Source: Tunturiibacter gelidiferens
Lineage (GTDB): Bacteria > Acidobacteriota > Terriglobia > Terriglobales > Acidobacteriaceae
NCBI RefSeq assembly: GCF_014201335.1
Contig: NZ_JACHEB010000001.1
Location: forward strand, 1-64,000
Direction of reading: 5' to 3'
Length of the DNA: 64,000 bases
Shown here: piece after piece, positions 6,246 through 61,339 of the stretch
Position numbering within the stretch: the first letter of the stretch is position 1
Layout of the letters: every line of letters begins with the position of its first letter
Translations under genes and position numbers: made by a program
The notes under the pieces: generated by a model
What the model saw: only the letters and a program-made list of their open reading frames with translations
Told to the model about the DNA's origin: nothing
The model's database searches: none

Positions 6246-8699
6246 ATGCGTCGGTTTGTCACGGTAGTCTTTCTTCTGTTTTTCACGATTCCTTTTGGCG
6301 TCTCAATAGCAGGCTGTTCCAAAAAATCAGCCACCGTCTTCTGCAACGGCGGAGACACCGGCCCTGCCGTAGGTCAGGTGTCGAACATCACACTACAGCC
6401 GAAGATCTTCGGCGTCTCGCTGAACTTCGCGCAGATCGGTCAGGTCACCGCACCGACCGCAATCGACTGCAAACAGACTGCCGTAACGGTGTCCAGCTAT
6501 ACCTACTCCACCTTCCTCCCGAACGGCCAGCCGGACATGACAATCGCCGATGTGCAGCCCACCACCGGCCGTCTCTGCGCAGGAACCTGGAACAGGAACA
6601 CCGGCGGCGGCATTGCCGACTTCACTACCTGCAACCCCACCAATAAATCCGGCACCGTCTACGTCATTGCCAATGGTGGCGGAGTCAGCAGCAATCCCCT
6701 TCCTATCTTCGTTCACCCCGTCGTCACCAACGTCACTCTCGGTCCACTCTCAACAGACTGCGTCAACGATCCTGCTACCAACTGCAGCCCCGCAGCATTT
6801 GACACGCAGGCCTCCACCTGCGCACAAACCACCAATGGAAACGGCTGCTGCGCCGTACCGGTTCCGACAACCGCCACTGCAGCCGCTGAAACCGGTTGTG
6901 TCTCCCAATCCGTCACCAGCCAGCTCGCTGCCAGGGTGGTGGCCGGAAACGGCGCGAATATCAGTTGCCAAGTCGGCCATCTCTCCTACGCCCCGCAGAC
7001 CGCTACCGTTGTCACCATCGACGAGAACGGCGTCGCGACCGCGCAGCAACCAGGTTCGACTGTCATCACCGCAAATATCTCGAACGCAGGAAGCTCCGCA
7101 GGATTCTTTTCCACCTGCCCTCCCATTTCGATCCAACTCACCGCACCTGTTGGGACCACACCTTCCAACAGCGTCATCGTCAATCCCAACAACGTTCAGC
7201 CGATTAACATTGTAGCGATAGACAAAAATAATACGATCCTCACCGGCCTCACCCTCAACTTCGAATCCACCACTCCCACCACGATTCCCGCTGCTTCAGC
7301 CGCCTCGGTGACCCCCATCTTCCCCGGCGCAGCTGCCATCACTGCCGTCTGCCAGCCTCCCACCTGCAATCCTGCCCCATTCAATCAGATTGGCCTCTTC
7401 GGCAACGGAAAACCAATCACCTCGAATCCTGTTCTCGTGACAGCGCCAGGCACCAACAGCACCAATCTCTACATTGCAAGCACCAACTCGTTTTATCTGG
7501 TGCCGGTAGATTTCACGCAGCCTCAGCTCGGAAGCCCGATTCGCCTGCCCTATCAGCCCAACTCGATGGTCATCAGTGACGACGGGAGCACCGTCTACAT
7601 GGGGAGCTCCTTCGAGTTGATGACCTTCGCTACCGCGACCAACAGCTTAAGCGCTCAGGACACGACCGTACCCGGCTCTGTACTCGCAATCTCCCCCGAC
7701 GGTACAACCCTCGTCATCACCGATCCGATTCGCCAGTTCGTCTACCTCTACACCCCGAGCAACGGCACTATCCAGACCCAATACGGCGGCGTTGGCACCC
7801 ACGCCGTCTTCTCGCCCGACAGCACCACCGTCTACATCACCCTCGGCAACTACGACGCTTCGACCGGCGTCACCACCCCGAACAATCAGCTCCTCGTTCA
7901 CTCCACCTTCACCGGCTGGTACCAGACGCAAACAACGCTGCCCAACTCGACTACACCGGTAAATACGACCGACGTCGCCATCGGGGTTCCAAGCGTTGGG
8001 GCTTTCTTCGGCGGCAGCAACACCACGGCCCGCTCCTACTGCCCGGTGGCGACGATAGTAGGCTTGCCGGCCACCACCGATTCGACTACTACCAACATCT
8101 TCTACCCGGATGCCGCTGTGCTCGGCCCACAAACAGACCGAATTGCCACTACAAACGACGGTCAGCACGTCCTGGGCGCGACTGTCACACCAACTCCAAC
8201 CTTCACCGACCTCTCGACGGCGCCGGGGCTGCCGGACAACGAATGCAACGAAACCAACTCGACGACAGGCCTCACCAAGCCGCAAACGTTTTCAACCAGC
8301 ACCGCCTTCACTGGGCCACTCCCCGGTATCACCGCCACGGCGATCACCGGCATCTTGCCTACCTCTGACTCGAAGATCGCCTTCGTAACCTATCTAGGCA
8401 GCGGAGCCGTCGTGCCGACCTACAGCCCGCAGGCCACCGGCGCCGGAACTCTTGGCAGCATTCCGCTATCGACCGCGCTGGGTACACCCATCGCACCGGT
8501 CGCTGGCGTCGTCAGTGCCGACAACCAGACCTTCTTCGCGGGCACATCAGGTGACAACGCCGTCCACCTCATCACCAAACAGACCGACGGCACCTACAAG
8601 GACACCACGACTCCGATCGCGCCGAAGCTACCCGACGCGAACGGAAACATCGTCGCTCCGAACCTCCTGGTACAGAAGCCCCGGAAGGCTACTTCCTAG
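6246..8699 (+). CDS. Large secreted lipoprotein with Ig-like and beta-propeller regions
   Basis: An 817-residue protein beginning with a lipoprotein signal peptide; the lipobox SIAGC places the lipidated cysteine at residue 24. A GGGGAGG ribosome binding site precedes the ATG. Residues about 40-400 are Thr/Val/Pro-rich, Ig-like, with many cysteines (for example VSITP-type strands and CQPPTCNP). Residues about 405-800 look like a YVTN/NHL-type beta-propeller, with repeats such as VISDDGSTVYMG and AISPDGTTLVITD. No catalytic motif was seen. Such multidomain lipoproteins are frequent in Acidobacteria; surface display or adhesion is a guess only. It is followed immediately by the dispersed inverted repeat. 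Confidence 0.8.
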   Translation: MRRFVTVVFLLFFTIPFGVSIAGCSKKSATVFCNGGDTGPAVGQVSNITLQPKIFGVSLNFAQIGQVTAPTAIDCKQTAVTVSSYTYSTFLPNGQPDMTIADVQPTTGRLCAGTWNRNTGGGIADFTTCNPTNKSGTVYVIANGGGVSSNPLPIFVHPVVTNVTLGPLSTDCVNDPATNCSPAAFDTQASTCAQTTNGNGCCAVPVPTTATAAAETGCVSQSVTSQLAARVVAGNGANISCQVGHLSYAPQTATVVTIDENGVATAQQPGSTVITANISNAGSSAGFFSTCPPISIQLTAPVGTTPSNSVIVNPNNVQPINIVAIDKNNTILTGLTLNFESTTPTTIPAASAASVTPIFPGAAAITAVCQPPTCNPAPFNQIGLFGNGKPITSNPVLVTAPGTNSTNLYIASTNSFYLVPVDFTQPQLGSPIRLPYQPNSMVISDDGSTVYMGSSFELMTFATATNSLSAQDTTVPGSVLAISPDGTTLVITDPIRQFVYLYTPSNGTIQTQYGGVGTHAVFSPDSTTVYITLGNYDASTGVTTPNNQLLVHSTFTGWYQTQTTLPNSTTPVNTTDVAIGVPSVGAFFGGSNTTARSYCPVATIVGLPATTDSTTTNIFYPDAAVLGPQTDRIATTNDGQHVLGATVTPTPTFTDLSTAPGLPDNECNETNSTTGLTKPQTFSTSTAFTGPLPGITATAITGILPTSDSKIAFVTYLGSGAVVPTYSPQATGAGTLGSIPLSTALGTPIAPVAGVVSADNQTFFAGTSGDNAVHLITKQTDGTYKDTTTPIAPKLPDANGNIVAPNLLVQKPRKATS

Positions 8700-8704
8700 A
8701 ATAG

Positions 8705-8894
8705 GTCCTGCCGGACGGGTACCCTGCGCGAGCAGCGGTCACTTCGCGACTCGTGATTGCTTAGCAGGGTGCTCCCGTCGGTCGCCAGCAAAGATCCGCG
8801 CCGACCAACGGGAGGGCTAACGGTTCATCCAGCCAAGACCGGTACACAAGCCACGAAGTGACCGCCGCCCGCGCAGGGCGCCCGTCCGGCAGGA
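8705..8894. repeat. Two head-to-head copies of a dispersed structured repeat (long imperfect palindrome)
   Basis: The left arm (8705-8786) reads GTCCTGCCGGACGGG, then GGTCACTTCGCGAC, GTGATTGCTTAGC and GTGCTCCCGTCGGTCGC. The right arm (8803-8894) is its near reverse complement. Related single copies are at 13347-13402 and 59997-60080. In the right arm, read on the minus strand, the variable hairpin is GCGCCC-TGCGC-GGGCGGC; the left arm has a decayed version. It fills the gap between the convergent lipoprotein and nusB genes, so a bidirectional terminator or REP-like function is possible. Confidence 0.85.
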
Positions 8895-8901
8895 CACCGT
8901 C

Positions 8902-9324
8902 TCAGGCAAGCCGTGTCTTCAGCACATCCCGCGCAATCGCATCTAGAACGCCATTGAGGAAGTGAATTGACTCAGGCGCAGCAAACCGCCGTCCAATCTC
9001 CAGCGTCTCGTTGATGATGATCGCAGCAGGCGTATTGGGAAATCCCAGCATCTCAGCGACCGCAGCCCTCAACAGATTTCGGTCAACCACCGGCATCCGC
9101 TCCAAACGCCAGTTCTGCGCATGCGCCTCAATCAGCTTGTCGATCTCCTCATCGCGAGTCGTAGCGATACGATAAAGATCTTCCGCAAATCCCCGCGTCT
9201 CGGCGTCCACATCTTCCACCGAGGCCCAGAAGAGCTTTTGCACTTGCTCAGGCGCCTGCTTGCCCAAGTCCCCCTGAAATAACATCTGCATCGTAAGTTC
9301 ACGCGACTTCCGGCGGGTGCCCAT
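8902..9324 (-). CDS. nusB: Transcription antitermination protein NusB
   Basis: A 140-residue all-helical NusB protein (begins MGTRRKSRELTMQMLFQGDL). It carries the family patterns RRKSRELTMQ and LLRAAVAEML, and the C-terminal FLNGVLDAIARD. With NusE/S10 it binds boxA RNA in rRNA leaders to prevent premature termination. Its ATG overlaps the stop of the upstream ribH by one base (TAATG), so translation is probably coupled. The ribH-nusB pairing is common in bacteria. The gene ends right beside the structured repeat at 8705-8894. Confidence 0.95.
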   Translation of the reverse strand: MGTRRKSRELTMQMLFQGDLGKQAPEQVQKLFWASVEDVDAETRGFAEDLYRIATTRDEEIDKLIEAHAQNWRLERMPVVDRNLLRAAVAEMLGFPNTPAAIIINETLEIGRRFAAPESIHFLNGVLDAIARDVLKTRLA

Positions 9325-11827: not shown

Positions 11828-13339
11828 TTGCAACTGCATACGACGGCACTGGTAGTCTTCTGTTTTTTCTTTCTCCTCGTAACTCTTGCCGGATTCTGGG
11901 CCGCACGATGGCGAAGACCGAAGACAGGCATGGGCTCGCTCGAGGAGTGGGGCCTCGCCGGCCGCAGCTTCGGTACCTGGATCACATGGTTCCTCATCGG
12001 TGGCGACCTCTACACCGCCTACACCGTCATCGCGGTCCCCGCAGCTCTCTACGGCGCCGGCGCGATGGGATTCTTCGCAGTGCCTTACGCGGTCATCGCC
12101 TACCCGTACATGATGCTCGTCTTGCCGAGACTCTGGACAGTATGCCACCGCCACGGTTACATAACCTTTGCGGACTTTGTCAACGGCCGTTACGGCAACC
12201 GCTGGCTCACCATCGCCATCGCGCTAACCGGCGTTCTCGCCCTCATGCCTTACATTGCGCTCCAGCTAGTCGGCATCCGCGTCGTCATCGGAGCCATGGG
12301 CATCCACGGGGAGTGGCCCCTCGCAGCCGCCTTCGTCATCCTCGCCGCCTACACCTACTCAAGCGGCCTGCGCGCCCCGGCGGTCATCGCCATCGTCAAG
12401 GACGTAATGCTCTACATCATGGTCCTCGCCGCTCTCATCTACATCCCTCACAAACTCGGCGGCTACGCCCGGGTCTTCGAAATCGCCAATCAACTACTGG
12501 CCCACCACACCCCAACCGCCACGATTCATCTGAAAGAGGGACAGTTCCTCGGCTACTCCACCCTCGCCATCGGTTCTGCCATAGCCCTCATGCTCTACCC
12601 CCACACGGCCACCGCAGTCCTAAGCGCGCAGAGCGCAAACGTAGTACGCCACAACGCCGCCATGCTACCGGCCTACAGCTTTCTCCTCGGACTCATCGCC
12701 CTCCTCGGCTATCTCGCCCTCGCCGCAGGCGTCGTCACCAAGGACGCGAACATGGCCGTCCCATTGCTCTTCCTCAAAATGTTTCCCGAGTGGTTCGCCG
12801 GCTTCTGCCTCGCCGCGGTCGCCATCGGCGCGCTCGTACCCGCAGCCATCATGTCCATCGCTGCCTCAAACCTCTTCACGCGCAACCTCTACGGAGCGCT
12901 GCTCAAACGGAAGATGCTCCCCGAAGAAGAATCGCGCATGGCCAAGGTCGTCTCCCTGGTAGTCAAGTTCGGCGCACTTCTTTTCGTCCTCAAACTCCCC
13001 GCGCCCTACGCCATCGAGATGCAACTCCTCGGAGGAATCTGGATGGGCCAACTATTCCCCTCGGTCGTAGTTGGCGTCTTCACCCGATGGTTCAACCCGT
13101 GGGCGCTTCTCCTAGGCTGGGCCGCAGGCATGTCCAGCGGCACCGCAATGGCCGTCGCGCTCGGCCTCAAGAGCTCGGTATATCCCCTTCACCTCTTCGG
13201 AAGCACGTACCCCATGTACGCCGCCGTCCCCGCTCTGCTCCTGAACCTCGCCGTCTCCACGGTGCTGACGCTCCTATTCCGCGCAATGAAGATAACCTCC
13301 GGCAGAGACTCCACGGACGCCGCAGCCTACATAGGATAG
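11828..13339 (+). CDS. Sodium:solute symporter family transporter
   Basis: A 503-residue inner-membrane protein with about 13 hydrophobic segments. The SSS-family signature region EEWGLAGRSFGTWITWFLIG is near residues 39-58, followed by GGDLYTAYT. The overall sequence resembles monocarboxylate/panthothenate-type SSS permeases (MctP-like), but the solute is not determined. The start is a TTG at 11828 with GGGTGA upstream, chosen because it includes the first transmembrane helix; a later Met would lose it. It is the left member of a convergent pair with guaA, separated by one copy of the dispersed structured repeat. Confidence 0.88.
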   Translation: MQLHTTALVVFCFFFLLVTLAGFWAARWRRPKTGMGSLEEWGLAGRSFGTWITWFLIGGDLYTAYTVIAVPAALYGAGAMGFFAVPYAVIAYPYMMLVLPRLWTVCHRHGYITFADFVNGRYGNRWLTIAIALTGVLALMPYIALQLVGIRVVIGAMGIHGEWPLAAAFVILAAYTYSSGLRAPAVIAIVKDVMLYIMVLAALIYIPHKLGGYARVFEIANQLLAHHTPTATIHLKEGQFLGYSTLAIGSAIALMLYPHTATAVLSAQSANVVRHNAAMLPAYSFLLGLIALLGYLALAAGVVTKDANMAVPLLFLKMFPEWFAGFCLAAVAIGALVPAAIMSIAASNLFTRNLYGALLKRKMLPEEESRMAKVVSLVVKFGALLFVLKLPAPYAIEMQLLGGIWMGQLFPSVVVGVFTRWFNPWALLLGWAAGMSSGTAMAVALGLKSSVYPLHLFGSTYPMYAAVPALLLNLAVSTVLTLLFRAMKITSGRDSTDAAAYIG

Positions 13340-13346
13340 CCAAAAA

Positions 13347-13402
13347 GGTATACAAGTCACGAAGTGACCGCCCTCCGCGCAGGAGGCCCGTCCGGCAGGA
13401 CG
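13347..13402 (-). repeat. Single copy of the dispersed structured repeat between convergent genes
   Basis: On the minus strand it reads GTCCTGCCGGAC-GGG, then the hairpin GCCTCC-TGCGC-GGAGGGC, then GTCAC-TTC-GTGAC and TTGTATAC. It matches the copies at 8705-8894 and 59997-60080, except that the middle stem has changed on both sides and still pairs. It starts 7 bases after the symporter stop and ends 3 bases from the guaA stop, occupying essentially the whole gap. Confidence 0.85.
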
Positions 13403-15466: not shown

Positions 15467-15519
15467 AGTCGTTCTCCTGGCAAAAAATAGCCTATGCAGA
15501 TGTGATGCAAAATATCCTA

Positions 15520-16470
15520 CTATCCCCGAGAAAAATATTCTGCGCCCTCGTACGCTCGCCAAAGCTGCAGATAAGCCACCTGCCGAGCAACGTGAAAGAA
15601 GTCAGATCCAAGAAAATAAAGGACCGTCACCCCGACCCACCACCAGAACAGAAACTCAGGCGTCGTCACACTCTCAAACGGCAGCGGAGTTGCCGAAAAC
15701 ACCATCGCCAACACAATCAACGCGATCTTCACGATTCCCATCACCAGATTGATCTCCACTAGCTTCGACTTCAGCGGCCCCAACCGAAACGCCGCTGCCA
15801 AACTTTCCCTTACACCCAACCCCTTCCACATCGCCATCAACGGCGCCACCGACAACCCCCAGCTCACCACCGCCCACAGCGTAAACAACCCTAACGTCGC
15901 CACAATCACCAACGAAAAATATCCCACAAGATTCGGCTCGCCACCCGCCGCAATGGGTCCAGTCACCGTCCACTCCGCCACCCGCTCCATACACCAGAAC
16001 CAAACTGCGAAGCTCCCCAGCAGCGCCAACACCCTCACCGCCTGCAAGACAATCAGTGTCCCAACACGCGAATGCAGCCGTTCATCGGCGCGCCGCAACA
16101 CCACCGTTCGACCCACCGCCGACACCACCACCCAGGCCACCACCAGCAACGGCGCCAGCCACAACACCACACTCAACACCTGCGGCACCAGTAGCGCCAA
16201 CGCCTTCGCCAACGTCTGCGCCGATCCCAACGGATCCACTACCGTCATGCCCTTCAACGCCGCATAGTCCAACGGCGTAGCCTGCAAGATCTTCAGCCCT
16301 TCATGCCGCAGCAACAACATAGCCGGCACCCCATAAAGCCACCGCCAAAGCACCTCGAGCGCCGTCAGCGAAGGCCGCCGCCAGCACTCCGAAAGCGTAT
16401 GCACAAACGACTGCGTCCCCCGAACCGTCCCAGCCGCAACCACCACCCCATCCTGCGGAATCTGCTCCAC
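15520..16470 (-). CDS. Polytopic membrane protein of unknown function
   Basis: A 316-residue integral membrane protein with about six hydrophobic segments, including WRWLYGVPAMLLL, LSVVLWLAPLLVVAWVVV, LALLGSFAVWFWC and IVKIALIVLAMVF. No catalytic motif or transporter signature was seen. Its GTG start shares one base with the leuS stop (TAGTG), so it is probably translated by coupling from the leuS transcript. The tie to leuS may be only physical. I did not recognise the family. Confidence 0.75.
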   Translation of the reverse strand: MEQIPQDGVVVAAGTVRGTQSFVHTLSECWRRPSLTALEVLWRWLYGVPAMLLLRHEGLKILQATPLDYAALKGMTVVDPLGSAQTLAKALALLVPQVLSVVLWLAPLLVVAWVVVSAVGRTVVLRRADERLHSRVGTLIVLQAVRVLALLGSFAVWFWCMERVAEWTVTGPIAAGGEPNLVGYFSLVIVATLGLFTLWAVVSWGLSVAPLMAMWKGLGVRESLAAAFRLGPLKSKLVEINLVMGIVKIALIVLAMVFSATPLPFESVTTPEFLFWWWVGVTVLYFLGSDFFHVARQVAYLQLWRAYEGAEYFSRG

Positions 16471-23890: not shown

Positions 23891-24661
23891 CCGCCGAAAC
23901 ACCTCCGCGCCAATCGTCCCCTCACCAATGTGCTCATGCCGATCCAGCTTCGAACCCATCGCCGCCTTCGCATCATTGCAGTGCCACACCTTCACATCGT
24001 CGAACCCAACCGTATCCCGCACCAGCAACATCGTCTCCGTATACCCATCCGGCGACACCATGTCATATCCCGACACATGTACATGGCAAGTATCCAGACA
24101 CACCCCCACCGGCGCACAAGCCTTCAGTCGCTCCACCAGCTCCGCCACCTGCTCCAGCTTTCCCCCCAGCGAAAACTCCGCCCCCGCCGTATTCTCAATC
24201 AAAATCCTGAAGTCCTTCCCCTGCCACGCCACGCCATCAATCGCCTTCTCAATTGACTCCGCCGCCAGCTGCAAACCCTCCTCCCGCGTCAACCCCTTCC
24301 AACTTCCCGGATGCAGCACCAGATACTCCGCCCCCAACGCCAGCGCCCGCTCCACCTCCCCGCGAAACGCCGCCACGCCATTCACGCGAACACTCTCCGT
24401 CTGACTGCAAAGATTAATCAGATAGCTCGCATGAATCGCTACCGGGCCCACATCATGCTTCGCCCGTAGCTCCCGCATCTTCTTCGCGTCTTCCGGCTTC
24501 ACCGCCGCAGCTCGCCACTGTCGCGGACTCGAAGAAAAAATCTGAAACGTATTCGCCCCCGCCGCCACGGCCCGCTCCACCGCGGTCCACGTTCCCCCCG
24601 CCGTCCCCACATGCACGCCAATCCGCTTCTTCCCCGTCTTTGCGATCACTGAACTCTTCAT
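23777..24661 (-). CDS. nfo: Deoxyribonuclease IV (AP endonuclease, endonuclease IV)
   Basis: A 294-residue enzyme of the AP endonuclease 2 family, which cuts at abasic sites in base-excision repair with three Zn ions. The TIM-barrel metal ligands are visible in VAIHASYLINL, YLVLHPGS, LDTCHVHVSGYD and VWHCNDAKA, and GEGTIGAEVF is present. The ATG (MKSSVIAKTGKK) is well placed. Its last 38 codons are duplicated at 22777-22892. This copy is complete. Confidence 0.96.
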   Translation of the reverse strand: MKSSVIAKTGKKRIGVHVGTAGGTWTAVERAVAAGANTFQIFSSSPRQWRAAAVKPEDAKKMRELRAKHDVGPVAIHASYLINLCSQTESVRVNGVAAFRGEVERALALGAEYLVLHPGSWKGLTREEGLQLAAESIEKAIDGVAWQGKDFRILIENTAGAEFSLGGKLEQVAELVERLKACAPVGVCLDTCHVHVSGYDMVSPDGYTETMLLVRDTVGFDDVKVWHCNDAKAAMGSKLDRHEHIGEGTIGAEVFRRLLHDERFAHAAFIAETPVDAPGDEARNVGVLRTLAAG

Positions 24662-24759
24662 CCCTCAAGGCTACCCCACCCGCAGCTTAAAGCGCGCCTC
24701 CATCACGCCCAAATGCTATGCTGACCCCGGCCATCATTCCGTGCAAAGAGGACGCCCCA

Positions 24760-25200
24760 ATGCCCGCTCCGCAAAGTCTTAAAAACCACACTCGCTACCA
24801 TCCGCCCTTTCACTTCGTCATCATTCCTCTGCTCCTGCTCAATCTCATCTTCTCCATCTACATCACCGTCCATAACTGGCCTGGCTACCAGCACACTCAT
24901 CTCTGGAACATCGTCATGGCTATCGTCTTCCTCCTGATGGCCGGCAACGCCCGCGAGTCAGCTATGAAAGCCCAGGACCGCGTCATCCGCCTCGAAGAGC
25001 GCCTCCGTCTCCACGCGCTGCTCCCCGAAGCCGACCGCGCGCACATCAACGAGCTCACCACCCGACAGCTCATCGCCCTTCGCTTCGCCTCCGACGACGA
25101 ACTCCCCGCACTTGCCCACCAGGCCCTCACCAAAAATATGGAGCCAAAGGCAATCAAGCAGGCCATCGTCAACTGGCGCGGCGACCACCACCGCATCTAG
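24760..25200 (+). CDS. DUF6526-type small membrane protein
   Basis: A 146-residue protein starting MPAPQSLKNHTRYHPPFHFV. It has two adjacent transmembrane helices (about residues 20-40 and 50-68) and a cytoplasmic helical region with RVIRLEERLRLHALL and LTTRQLIALRFASDDELP. I recognise the pattern as DUF6526; function unknown. The ATG at 24760 follows AGAGGA; the frame is open 14 codons further, but without support. It is followed by a bidirectional terminator shared with the convergent gene at 25265. Confidence 0.82.
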   Translation: MPAPQSLKNHTRYHPPFHFVIIPLLLLNLIFSIYITVHNWPGYQHTHLWNIVMAIVFLLMAGNARESAMKAQDRVIRLEERLRLHALLPEADRAHINELTTRQLIALRFASDDELPALAHQALTKNMEPKAIKQAIVNWRGDHHRI

Positions 25201-44569: not shown

Positions 44570-44697
44570 CTCACTCAAAGCTCACACCTCTTCCTGACGC
44601 TAAGGCAACAGGCTCGGTGGAAAGAGCTCCAAATGAGGAAACCGTATAGGAATAGCGATCATGCATCTTCTTGTTCTCCGCAGAAGTCTGCCGGTTA

Positions 44698-44872
44698 CTC
44701 TCGGGTAGGTCTCCTGGCTTGGAGGTAGCAGGGTAAACCTGCACGCCGCTTTACCTTCCCCAGCCAGCGGCCGAGTGGTACCTCAAAGCAGCTATCCTCA
44801 CTTACAGTGGCGGAACCGCGCCGGTTCTTCACCGGACTTCCCTGTTATGCCCTGATGGGCACCCGAGACAGA
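44698..44872 (-). promoter_or_regulatory. Cobalamin (B12) riboswitch upstream of cobN
   Basis: On the minus strand the order is GGGTGCCC, GAAGTCCGGTGAAG, the B12 box GCCACTG (in GTTCCGCCACTGTAAG), CTCGGCCGCTGGCTGG and the 3' AGCCAGGAGACCTACC. These are the conserved elements of the cobalamin riboswitch. It starts about 300 bases upstream of cobN and ends about 130 bases before it, so adenosylcobalamin is expected to repress the cobN-chelatase operon. The remainder of the 44570-44950 gap shows nothing else. Confidence 0.93.
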
Positions 44873-44950
44873 TTTCGTTATACCACAATGAAATCGTTGC
44901 GATGTCACGCTCACGTCGGCTCGAAAATCGGCTGGCAAGCAAATCGCCCA

Positions 44951-59024: not shown

Positions 59025-59990
59025 ATGCGGTTAGGGTTGTTTACGCCGATATTCAATGGGTTGACACTGGATGCGTTGCTGGTGGAGTTGAAGAAGTATC
59101 CGCAGATTGAAACGCTGGAGATTGGGACGGGAGGGTGGCCCGGGAACAGTCATCTTGATCTGGATGCGCTGCTCGCGAGTAAAGAGGCGGCGCGGACGTA
59201 TAGGGCGAAGCTGGAGGATGCGGGGCTTTCGATCAGCGCGCTGTCGTGCCATGGGAATCCGGTGCATCCGAAGAAGGAGATCGCTGAACGCGATGATGAG
59301 GTGCTGCGGAAGACGGTGAAGCTGGCGGAGCAGATAAATGTTCCTGTGGTGGTTACATTTTCTGGCTGCCCGGGTGGATCGGCACAGGATGTGACGCCGA
59401 ACTGGATCACAGCGGCTTGGCCTCCGGAGTTTTCGGATGCGTTGGCGTGGCAGTGGGAGGAGCGGCTGATTCCCTACTGGAAGGGTGCGGCTAAAGTTGC
59501 GGCGGATACAGGGGTGAAGATTGCGCTCGAGGCTCATCCGGGATTCTGCGTGTATAACCCGGAGACGGTGCTGCGTCTGCGTGGGGCTGTGGGCGATTCG
59601 GTTGGGATCAATCTAGACCCTAGTCATCTTTGGTGGCAGGGGATCGATATTCCGACGGCGATTGCTGCGCTGGGTGAGGCTATCTTTCACTTTCATGCGA
59701 AGGATGTGGCGATCCATGGGGCGATGCGGGATATCAATGGAGTGTTGGATACGAAGAGTTATCGTGAGATGGCGAAGAGGTCGTGGTTGTTTCGGTCGGT
59801 TGGGTGGGGGCATGACGAGCTGGAGTGGAAGAGGATTGCTTCTGCGCTGCGGCTGGCTGGGTATGACTTCGTGATGAGCATTGAGCATGAGGATGCTCTG
59901 GCTTCTACGCATGAGGGCCTGTCTTCGGCGATTGGGATGCTGTCGCGCGTGTTGCTGAAGGAGGCTCCGGTTGAGGCTTGGTGGGCGTAA
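59025..59990 (+). CDS. Sugar phosphate isomerase/epimerase, TIM-barrel family
   Basis: A 321-residue AP-endonuclease-2-like TIM barrel: LGLFTPIFNGLTLDALL, CHGNPVHP, FSGCPGGSAQDV, EAHPGFCVYNPE, NLDPSHLWWQG, HFHAKDVAIH and SIEHEDA. The metal-ligand E, D, H and E positions are present, as in the xylose isomerase-like and IolE/IolI groups. The reaction cannot be fixed by eye; sugar or inositol metabolism is likely. It starts at ATG 59025 with GAGGGG upstream. It is followed by the dispersed repeat and the convergent MFS gene. Confidence 0.88.
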   Translation: MRLGLFTPIFNGLTLDALLVELKKYPQIETLEIGTGGWPGNSHLDLDALLASKEAARTYRAKLEDAGLSISALSCHGNPVHPKKEIAERDDEVLRKTVKLAEQINVPVVVTFSGCPGGSAQDVTPNWITAAWPPEFSDALAWQWEERLIPYWKGAAKVAADTGVKIALEAHPGFCVYNPETVLRLRGAVGDSVGINLDPSHLWWQGIDIPTAIAALGEAIFHFHAKDVAIHGAMRDINGVLDTKSYREMAKRSWLFRSVGWGHDELEWKRIASALRLAGYDFVMSIEHEDALASTHEGLSSAIGMLSRVLLKEAPVEAWWA

Positions 59991-59996
59991 GGGACT

Positions 59997-60080
59997 GTCC
60001 TGCCGGACGGGCCCACTGCGCGTGGGGCGGTCACTTCGTGACTTGTGATTGCTTCGCTTGGGTGCTCCCGTTGGTCGCTC
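59997..60080 (+). repeat. Single copy of the dispersed structured repeat between convergent genes
   Basis: Reads GTCCTGCCGGAC-GGG, hairpin GCCCAC-TGCGC-GTGGGGC, hairpin GTCAC-TTC-GTGAC, then TTGTGATTGCTTCGCTTGGGTGCTCCCGTTGGTCGC split across about 35 bases. It matches the copies at 8705-8894 and 13347-13402; here the variable stem is CCCAC/GTGGG. It starts 7 bases after the isomerase stop and ends 6 bases before the MFS stop. Confidence 0.85.
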
Positions 60081-60085
60081 TTGAT

Positions 60086-61339
60086 CTAGAGGGGTGATTC
60101 TATTGGGATGGCTCCGGCGCTTTCCGTGGCTGTGACTGATGTGCTTTCTTTGTCAGTGAAGGTGAGCAAGAAAAGAACGAGGACTGCAGCTGACGCAGAG
60201 GCTGCGACGATCCAGATGGATTGCCACTGGTGGATCGGTGTCCCGGTTGCTGATGTTGTGGTGTAACGCTCTACGACCGCTCCTGAGAGCCATGAGCCTA
60301 CGAACATGCCCGCTCCGTAGGTGATGAAGGTGATGAGGCCCTGTGCGGCTGCACGCAAGGCGGCAGAGGCTTTGCGGTCTATGTAGATCTGGCCGGTGAC
60401 AAAGAAGAAGTCGTAGCAGATGCCGTGGAGAAGAATGCCGAGCCAGAACATCCAGACTTTGCTGTCGGCGTTGCCGTAGGCGAAGAGGAAGTAGCGCAAG
60501 ACCCATGCCGACATGCCCGCGACGAGCATGTACTTGACGCCCAGGCGACGAAAGAACCAGGGGATGAGAAGCATGCAGAAGAGCTCGGACATCTGGCCAC
60601 CGGTCATCTTGCCTGCGGCGTTGTGGACGCCTGCTTCGTTGAGGAAGAGGTTGGTGAAGGCGTAGTAAAACTGCAGCGGAATGCAGATGAGGAAGGAGGC
60701 GATGGCGAAGATGGCCATGGAGCGCTCGCGTAGGAGAGCGATGGCTTCGCGGGGGAAGATGCTGGAGAGGGAGAAGCGACCTTCGCGGGCGAGAGGTGGC
60801 GTGTCGGGGAGGGTGAGGCAGTAGAGCGCCATGAGGATGGAGAGCGCGGCGGCGAGTTGTAAGGGGCGGGCGGTGGCTTCGAGTCGGAGGGTGCCGACGA
60901 GGAGGCCGGCGGCGATCCACCCGGCTGTGCCGAGGACGCGGATGGGGCCAAACTCTAGCTTGGGGTCGGACATCTGGCGGAAGGCGAGGGAGTTGGTGAG
61001 GGCTAGGGTGGGCATGAAGCAGAGGCAGTAGAGGAGGAGGAGTGGATAGATTTTGTTGAAGGCGATTTGTTGCGAGGCGAGAAAGAGGAGGATGCCGCCG
61101 AGGAGATGGAGTGCGGCAAGGACGCGTTGGGTGGCGAAGAGCTTGTCGGCGATGAGGCCGACGAAGAAGGGAGCGATCATGGCGCCGACGGCGGTGGTGC
61201 CTGCCGCGAGGCCGATCTGCTGGCCCGTGAAGTGGAGCGAGGAGGCTAGCCAGGTGCCGACGGTGACGTACCAGGCTCCCCAGATGAAGTACTCGAGGAA
61301 CATCATTGCGCCGAGGCGGGTCCTGATCTGCATGTTCAC
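60086..61339 (-). CDS. MFS transporter, nucleoside:H+ symporter (NupG) type
   Basis: A 417-residue 12-helix transporter beginning MNMQIRTRLGAMMFLEYFIW, with GAWYVTVGTWL and GLIADKLFATQRVLAALHL typical of the NupG nucleoside permease group; later HGICYDFFFVTGQIYID. Nucleosides or related sugars are the likely cargo, but other substrates are possible in this branch. It reads toward the isomerase cluster and is separated from it by a dispersed repeat. The PQQ dehydrogenase gene is just upstream on the same strand (42 bases), suggesting co-transcription. Confidence 0.85.
   Translation of the reverse strand: MNMQIRTRLGAMMFLEYFIWGAWYVTVGTWLASSLHFTGQQIGLAAGTTAVGAMIAPFFVGLIADKLFATQRVLAALHLLGGILLFLASQQIAFNKIYPLLLLYCLCFMPTLALTNSLAFRQMSDPKLEFGPIRVLGTAGWIAAGLLVGTLRLEATARPLQLAAALSILMALYCLTLPDTPPLAREGRFSLSSIFPREAIALLRERSMAIFAIASFLICIPLQFYYAFTNLFLNEAGVHNAAGKMTGGQMSELFCMLLIPWFFRRLGVKYMLVAGMSAWVLRYFLFAYGNADSKVWMFWLGILLHGICYDFFFVTGQIYIDRKASAALRAAAQGLITFITYGAGMFVGSWLSGAVVERYTTTSATGTPIHQWQSIWIVAASASAAVLVLFLLTFTDKESTSVTATESAGAIPIESPL

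Follow-up and report, generated by a model that had tools for sequence, protein, structure and literature searches.

In the first 64,000 nt of contig NZ_JACHEB010000001.1 of Tunturiibacter gelidiferens (the window), related hairpin-rich sequences lie in three gaps between converging genes, among them 59997-60080. What kind of element is this, and does its structure serve a transcript, the DNA or the spread of the element itself? A preliminary description regarded it as a dispersed repeat with selected structure and considered a bidirectional terminator or a REP-like element. The copies in the window, their parts and their neighbours are listed in Table 1.

Table 1. Coordinates of the repeat copies in the window, of adjoining genes and of other features mentioned in the text (G numbers designate genomes of relatives)
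Feature	Position	Strand	Remarks
Copy with half centre	59997-60080	+	single arm (59997-60050), then first half of centre
Hairpin 1 of this copy	59997-60008	+	GTCC-TGCC-GGAC
Hairpin 2 of this copy	60012-60026	+	CCCAC-TGCGC-GTGGG; covarying stem
Hairpin 3 of this copy	60030-60042	+	GTCAC-TTC-GTGAC; type A
Central hairpin, first half only	60065-60077	+	CTCCCGTTGGTCG; no second half
Left neighbour, TIM-barrel gene	59025-59990	+	
Right neighbour, nucleoside/H+ symporter gene	60086-61339	-	
Full inverted unit, head-out	8705-8895		arm, central hairpin, reversed arm
Left arm of full unit	8705-8758	+	hairpin 2 TACCC/GAGCA, unpaired
Central hairpin of full unit	8772-8814		CTCCCGTCGGTCG ... CGACCAACGGGAG
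Right arm of full unit	8842-8895	-	hairpin 2 CGCCC/GGGCG
Left neighbour of full unit, gene	6246-8699	+	
Right neighbour of full unit, nusB	8902-9324	-	
Lone arm without centre	13348-13401	-	hairpin 2 CCTCC/GGAGG
Left neighbour of lone arm, gene	11930-13339	+	
Right neighbour of lone arm, GMP synthase gene guaA	13406-14965	-	
Gap without copy	15470-15593		orthologous gap: copy in G024, G065, G084, G031 and G013; none seen in G071
Gap without copy	24643-24760		orthologous gap: copy in G024, G065, G084 and G031; none in G071
Cobalamin riboswitch (Rfam RF00174)	44687-44881	-	96.8 bits

The four arms reported in the preliminary description are present, and their head, GTCCTGCCGGACGGG, is identical in all of them. 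Their arrangement had been missed: two arms form one inverted head-out unit, and the copy after the TIM-barrel gene is an arm followed by half a centre. In this copy, hairpin 1 is followed by a GGG spacer and hairpin 2 by GCG, and a linker leads to the half centre. The perfect hairpin 3 that had been regarded as common to all copies is found here and is imperfect in both arms of the full unit. Similarly, the three different paired middle stems exist, but the left arm of the full unit carries an unpaired one. The block GCGGTCACTTCGTGACTTGT has four matches in the window with up to three mismatches and none in 100 shuffled sequences. The head alone, at the same tolerance, is at chance level in the window, with six matches compared to 3.5 on average after shuffling and at least six in 14 of 100 shuffled sequences; genome-wide and with up to two mismatches, it matches 96 times versus 17 times for the reversed control. 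In Rfam, no window copy matches a curated family at the gathering score, and region 59950-60150 yields no match even at E≤1. Folded as single-stranded DNA, the full unit reaches a z-score of -8.5 compared to shuffles, as any palindrome would.

A covariance model (R1) was built from 29 copies of this genome picked by the exact head. It detects at least 131 arms at E≤0.1, which make up 105 sites in the 6.18 Mb genome of this soil bacterium; as 150 of 4400 first-look candidates were scored, weak copies may be missed. An arm of about 54 nt consists of three tandem hairpins with near-constant loops, and the full form of about 190 bp comprises two head-out arms flanking a central hairpin. All 26 close arm pairs are head-out and spaced 21-96 bp, and the other 79 sites are single arms. 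Among these 79, the first half of the centre is present in 65, the second half in 11 and a remnant of a second arm in 7 (three mismatches allowed in each case). The excess of first halves means that half elements mostly end at the centre. Paired arms (n = 52) show a median of 6 differences from the consensus versus 3 in single arms (n = 79; p = 0.006), which may in part be due to a consensus built on the majority class of arms (type A, see below). Site density varies across the contigs (chi-square p = 0.011 for the 12 largest): contigs C6, C7, C8 and C10 carry few sites (2, 1, 2 and 1 versus 6.7, 6.1, 5.1 and 4.6 expected), C2 (18 versus 10.1) and C16 (6 versus 2.1) many.

In some arms, hairpin 2 is interrupted behind its TGCGC loop by an additional module, a hairpin of about 45 nt (loci L024, L063, L095, L109, L116, L127, L169, L266, L305, L344 and L442). 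This module has a near-constant AAGACCTG loop and stems that vary on both sides, e.g. CCCCGCAAAC/GTTTGCGGGG in L063 and CCCCACGAAC/GTTCGTGGGG in L024.

Do the two sides of the stems change together, as had been claimed? In 27 distinct arms of this genome, 93.4% of the cells pair compared to 85.4% after shuffling, and 30 cells are changed on both sides versus 8.8, a value reached by none of 500 shuffles. Of five measures applied to these arms, two do not exceed shuffles, namely double-change pairs (reached by 80 of 500) and pair types (475 of 500). A second alignment, fitted to the model and including orthologous copies, comprises 65 distinct arms taken from relatives and from orthologous gaps; here, 82 cells are changed on both sides versus 21.9 in shuffles. 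Double changes are found there at 9 of 14 pairs, and the signal disappears when the partners are slid against each other. In this form, above shuffled and slid controls and not in every measure, the two-sided change holds. Pairing is also kept outside the window: the inner four pairs of hairpin 2 are intact in 278 of 332 distinct contexts (all five pairs in 183, the inner four in 95), where the contexts are matches to a loose middle-hairpin pattern and include some chance hits and some orthologues. Hairpin 2 occurs with 11 or more fully paired stem types. In this genome, 100 of 118 parsed arms keep all four inner pairs; 13 more could not be parsed. Hairpin 1 is invariant in the 29 aligned copies, which were selected by their exact head, and reads GGCC/GGCC or GCGC/GCGC in some relatives.

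The unpaired parts behave differently from the stems. Loops and spacers are near-constant, except for the TTC loop, which differs in a second class of arms (type B). The extra G following the stem of hairpin 2, rightly described as conserved, is a G in 346 of 352 arms. By contrast, position 30, the last 3' stem base opposite C16, is free, with G in 231 of 352. These observations bear on a neutral explanation: template switching within the hairpins could make one side of a stem the template for its partner, and a family without any function would then look covarying. Template switching is a known process for quasi-palindromes, the element is a nested quasi-palindrome, and one-sided intermediates are rare. 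However, the free position 30 means that the outermost base of stem 2 is left uncorrected, and the near-constant loops and spacers indicate constraint somewhere. Moreover, the two arms of a pair in this genome share their stem type in only 3 of 21 parsed cases with 3.35 expected, i.e. correction between arms is not seen. Altogether, mutation of this kind is rather unlikely to account for the paired changes. Homogenisation from arm to arm had been considered on pooled data, where 26 of 58 pairs have the same stem 2 versus 11.6 in shuffles, but genomes and orthologues were mixed in this set, and the effect is gone within the single genome. For hairpin 3, the two arms of a pair seemed to match less often than expected (2 of 58 versus 8.2), but this result was discarded, too: it suffered from the same pooling, and one base beyond the hairpin had been counted.

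At which level does the structure act? In the 352 ungapped arms, 82 of which differ from the consensus by 8 or 9 bases as type B does, G-T and A-C mismatches are equally frequent (40:40). This fits a DNA structure or the use of both strands, and selection on the RNA of one strand, for which it gives no sign, was rejected. RNA folds of the three stretches with window arms show little or no gain over shuffles (z = -1.3, -0.1 and -0.7). Together, the equal mismatches and the weak RNA folds make structure at the DNA level or use of both strands more likely than a role as RNA.

The statement that the repeat always lies between convergent genes is true for the three sites in the window and fails genome-wide. 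According to a home-made gene caller, whose individual gene ends may be wrong, 39 of the 105 sites are in convergent, 55 in co-directional and 11 in divergent gaps; none lies within a called gene. The 306 gaps without a copy comprise 41 convergent, 199 co-directional and 66 divergent ones. Hence, the context is not random: the odds ratio is 3.8 for convergent (p = 6e-7) and 0.43 for divergent gaps (p = 0.013). In 109 loci of relatives, fetched because they bear copies and including orthologues, 160 sites are distributed over 47 convergent, 66 co-directional and 18 divergent gaps, 7 are inside an ORF and 22 at an edge, while gaps without a copy number 81, 370 and 98, respectively. Here, the odds ratio for convergent gaps is 3.2 (p = 2e-7), and the divergent class shows no significant effect (p = 0.30). 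The preference for convergent gaps is real, but it is not a rule. In this genome, the median distance to the nearer stop codon is 8 bp in convergent gaps; in co-directional gaps, medians of 25 bp and 91 bp separate a copy from the stop codon upstream and the start codon downstream of it, respectively. In relatives, an arm overlaps a called ORF of more than 900 bp in L093, L165, L174 and L188, in three of them at the ORF end.

The repeat is restricted to one genus among the genomes searched. R1 matches 25 of 37 members of the genus (this genome included), which belongs to the Edaphobacter/Granulicella group. No match was obtained in the other 12 members and in 24 genomes outside the genus, some of the genomes being incomplete. 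With a broader model, R2, 250 genomes of the class were searched; the 19 with a match all belong to the same genus. Copies per genome range from none to more than 90. Carriers among the matches listed are Edaphobacter lichenicola, Granulicella sp., Terriglobus, other Acidobacteriaceae and records of metagenome-assembled genomes. In L066 (genome G022) and L070 (G001), both from low-copy genomes, a full element is common to a region of 79% identity and adjoins a gene that by eye is perhaps phage-related. Searches of plasmids (with 59997-60080) and of phages (with 8705-8895) gave no match, and viral contigs contain no exact match to one pattern. In titles and abstracts of the literature, no description of this repeat was found; the 12-base head occurs in one plant paper. 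For Granulicella aggregans, REP counts exist, given without sequences in the relevant part of the source (PMC12306157).

Comparison of individual gaps reveals presence and absence. The gap after position 59990 contains the element in all eight relatives with at least 87% identity in the left gene, either full or half and with different stems, and in none of five more distant loci. The guaA gap is filled in the same eight relatives and in one of 21 further loci (L352); it lacks the element in G078, G017 and G067 (87% identity in guaA). Two window gaps without a copy have orthologues that carry one (Table 1), and G013 holds a different sequence at the gap orthologous to the second of them. Conversely, for two sites of this genome, C5:314122 (compared to G013 and G085) and C5:233220 (compared to G085), the orthologous gap contains other sequence instead of the element. 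At the two window gaps without a copy, neither a clean target duplication nor a sharp junction was found, the junctions being too worn. G013 and G085 have 13 arms each in 400 kb that match by spacing and score. This correspondence and the two window gaps filled in eight relatives mean that recent movement is not seen.

A second repeat, AGATTCC...GGAATGACAACAAAAG or a variant of it and in one case with long runs resembling CAACGA, occupies the same or neighbouring gaps in relatives. It was observed in G013 and G085 at the gap corresponding to C5:314122, in L310 after the element and in G013 at the gap corresponding to 24643-24760. In the window, four probes for it (up to one mismatch) remained unmatched, and a fifth probe of 9 bases matched many places.

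Is the element a terminator or another RNA signal kept by the host? Hairpin 3 exists in two types, of which type A is the majority and the only one in the window. In type B (GGCGTTCGCACGCC and close variants), 45 of 57 arms continue with TTTT no more than 8 nt on; in type A, such a run was found in 6 of 296. This makes intrinsic termination plausible for type B arms only, judged from their base sequence. The window copies have no T-run directly after hairpin 3 (that of the lone arm has TTTTT nine bases on), and a scan of the three regions for terminator-like sites yielded one weak site (shuffled mean 0.4), none and none. In addition, facing the incoming transcript is not favoured, as 18 of the 45 single arms between co-directional genes do so. 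For the window copies, a bidirectional terminator thus finds no support, whereas the REP-like element with conserved structure is borne out by the 131 arms and their covariation. More broadly, the hairpin cluster might end or protect transcripts at gene 3' ends, with type B arms as true intrinsic terminators and with selection on the RNA fold. Such a host element would agree with the preference for convergent gaps and for the 3' ends of genes, with the T-runs of type B and with the retention of two gaps in the same eight relatives. It is, however, at odds with the near-lack of T-runs in type A, the missing orientation of single arms, G-T mismatches no more frequent than A-C, the weak RNA folds of the window arms and the 12 genus members without a match. 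An RNA element maintained by the host is therefore unlikely to be the explanation for the family.

What could have spread the repeat? A gene for a Y1_Tnp (RAYT-type) transposase has no match in this genome, in a search in which 5 of 14 controls were positive, and is present in 49 of 60 genomes of the genus. High-copy genomes exist without Y1_Tnp (G000, G013, G027 and G028) and with it (G004 with one gene, G024 with two, G031 with three). No link between the number of Y1_Tnp genes and copy number was found (means 1.5 and 2.6, p = 0.38, for 13 genomes with at least 17 copies and 24 with fewer). The repeat is absent from the 30 Y1_Tnp loci examined out of 129 genus matches, and R2 gave weak matches at such loci at best (lowest E 0.27). 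On the grounds of this absence and of the missing gene in this genome, a RAYT link was rejected. Clustering of 357 neighbouring genes gave 2-5 members for each of the 15 largest clusters, and inspection by eye revealed no transposase there. In this genome, the elements may be immobile today. A MITE of an insertion sequence with DDE transposase, whose terminal inverted repeats would be the head-out arms of the 190-bp form, is very unlikely given that most sites are single-armed, that recurring neighbour families lack a transposase by eye, that the two sites with worn junctions show no target duplication, and that each arm has three internal hairpins, which is unusual for a MITE end.

In the broad sense, the family resembles REPs and BIMEs: short palindromes in many intergenic copies, biased towards gene 3' ends and convergent gaps. 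REP families are known to form head-out dimers with foldable spacers, to share this location bias and to contain subfamilies with complementary stems (PMC3733652). REPs and BIMEs of the GTAG superfamily are intergenic palindromes with tens to hundreds of copies and with subfamilies that differ by complementary stem changes (Di Nocera et al. 2013, PMC3733652). They are situated near stop codons where genes converge or follow each other in one direction, and their head-out dimers are spaced 20-100 bp. All of this is observed here. Unlike them, the present repeat builds each arm from three hairpins, is found in a genome with no match to Y1_Tnp and does not end in GTAG: in the 15 nt adjoining the head on its outer side, 9 of 131 arms have GTAG/CTAC, which equals the background of 6.9%. 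CGTC-tagged REPs (PMC3733652) are similar in their mostly head-out dimers, their missing link to a transposase gene and their loops of 4-5 nt. They differ in that CGTC is internal here (CCCGTCC, read backwards) and not terminal, that stems here have 4-5 bp and theirs 8-9 bp, and that the consensus, on inspection, has neither their AT start nor their CCA tail. In the same 15 nt, CGTC/GACG is present in 16 of 131 arms.

REPINs (Bertels and Rainey 2011, PMC3116915) are inverted doublets that fold as a hairpin and for which compensatory changes are reported. The present family has close inverted pairs as well, without exception among the 26, although 79 of 105 sites are single-armed. In contrast to REPINs, it lacks Y1_Tnp in this genome, and its doublets are not better conserved than singlets. 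In a REPIN family, single arms would be expected to show more decay; here, it is the paired arms that have decayed further, a difference in which the bias of the consensus may again play a part. TIRtrons/TIRYTs are found in the same phylum, the Acidobacteria, and have long inverted repeats, some partly self-complementary and some in repeated families (PMC3733652). At the level of loci, they are set apart by the absence of our repeat from the 30 Y1_Tnp loci of the genus that were examined.

From these data, the repeat is probably a new variety of REP/BIME-like non-autonomous palindromic family that was spread by a trans-acting enzyme acting on single strands. When a strand becomes single, e.g. 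on the lagging-strand template, the hairpins would form. A nuclease or transposase supplied in trans could then read the conserved loops and spacers, and the same enzyme might have carried copies to further intergenic sites. Where they hit genes or promoters, insertions would have been lost, so that the surviving copies gather near the 3' ends of genes and in gaps between converging genes. Through deletion at the centre, full palindromes may subsequently collapse to half elements. A more far-reaching combination can be envisaged: the single-strand DNA enzyme would read the loops TGCC, TGCGC and TTC and largely ignore the stems, RAYT would have no part in it, and type B arms, as mobile intrinsic terminators, would set transcript ends between genes. 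Taken as a whole, this combination is decidedly unlikely.

For annotation, the repeat accounts for about 100 intergenic sites in the genome, which are not gene-specific RNAs. REPs are usually explained by RAYTs; here, a large covarying REP-like family exists, and in several genomes with it no RAYT was found. The same gap, empty, half-filled or full in sister species, provides a natural panel on which both the mobiliser and the fate of palindromes are testable.
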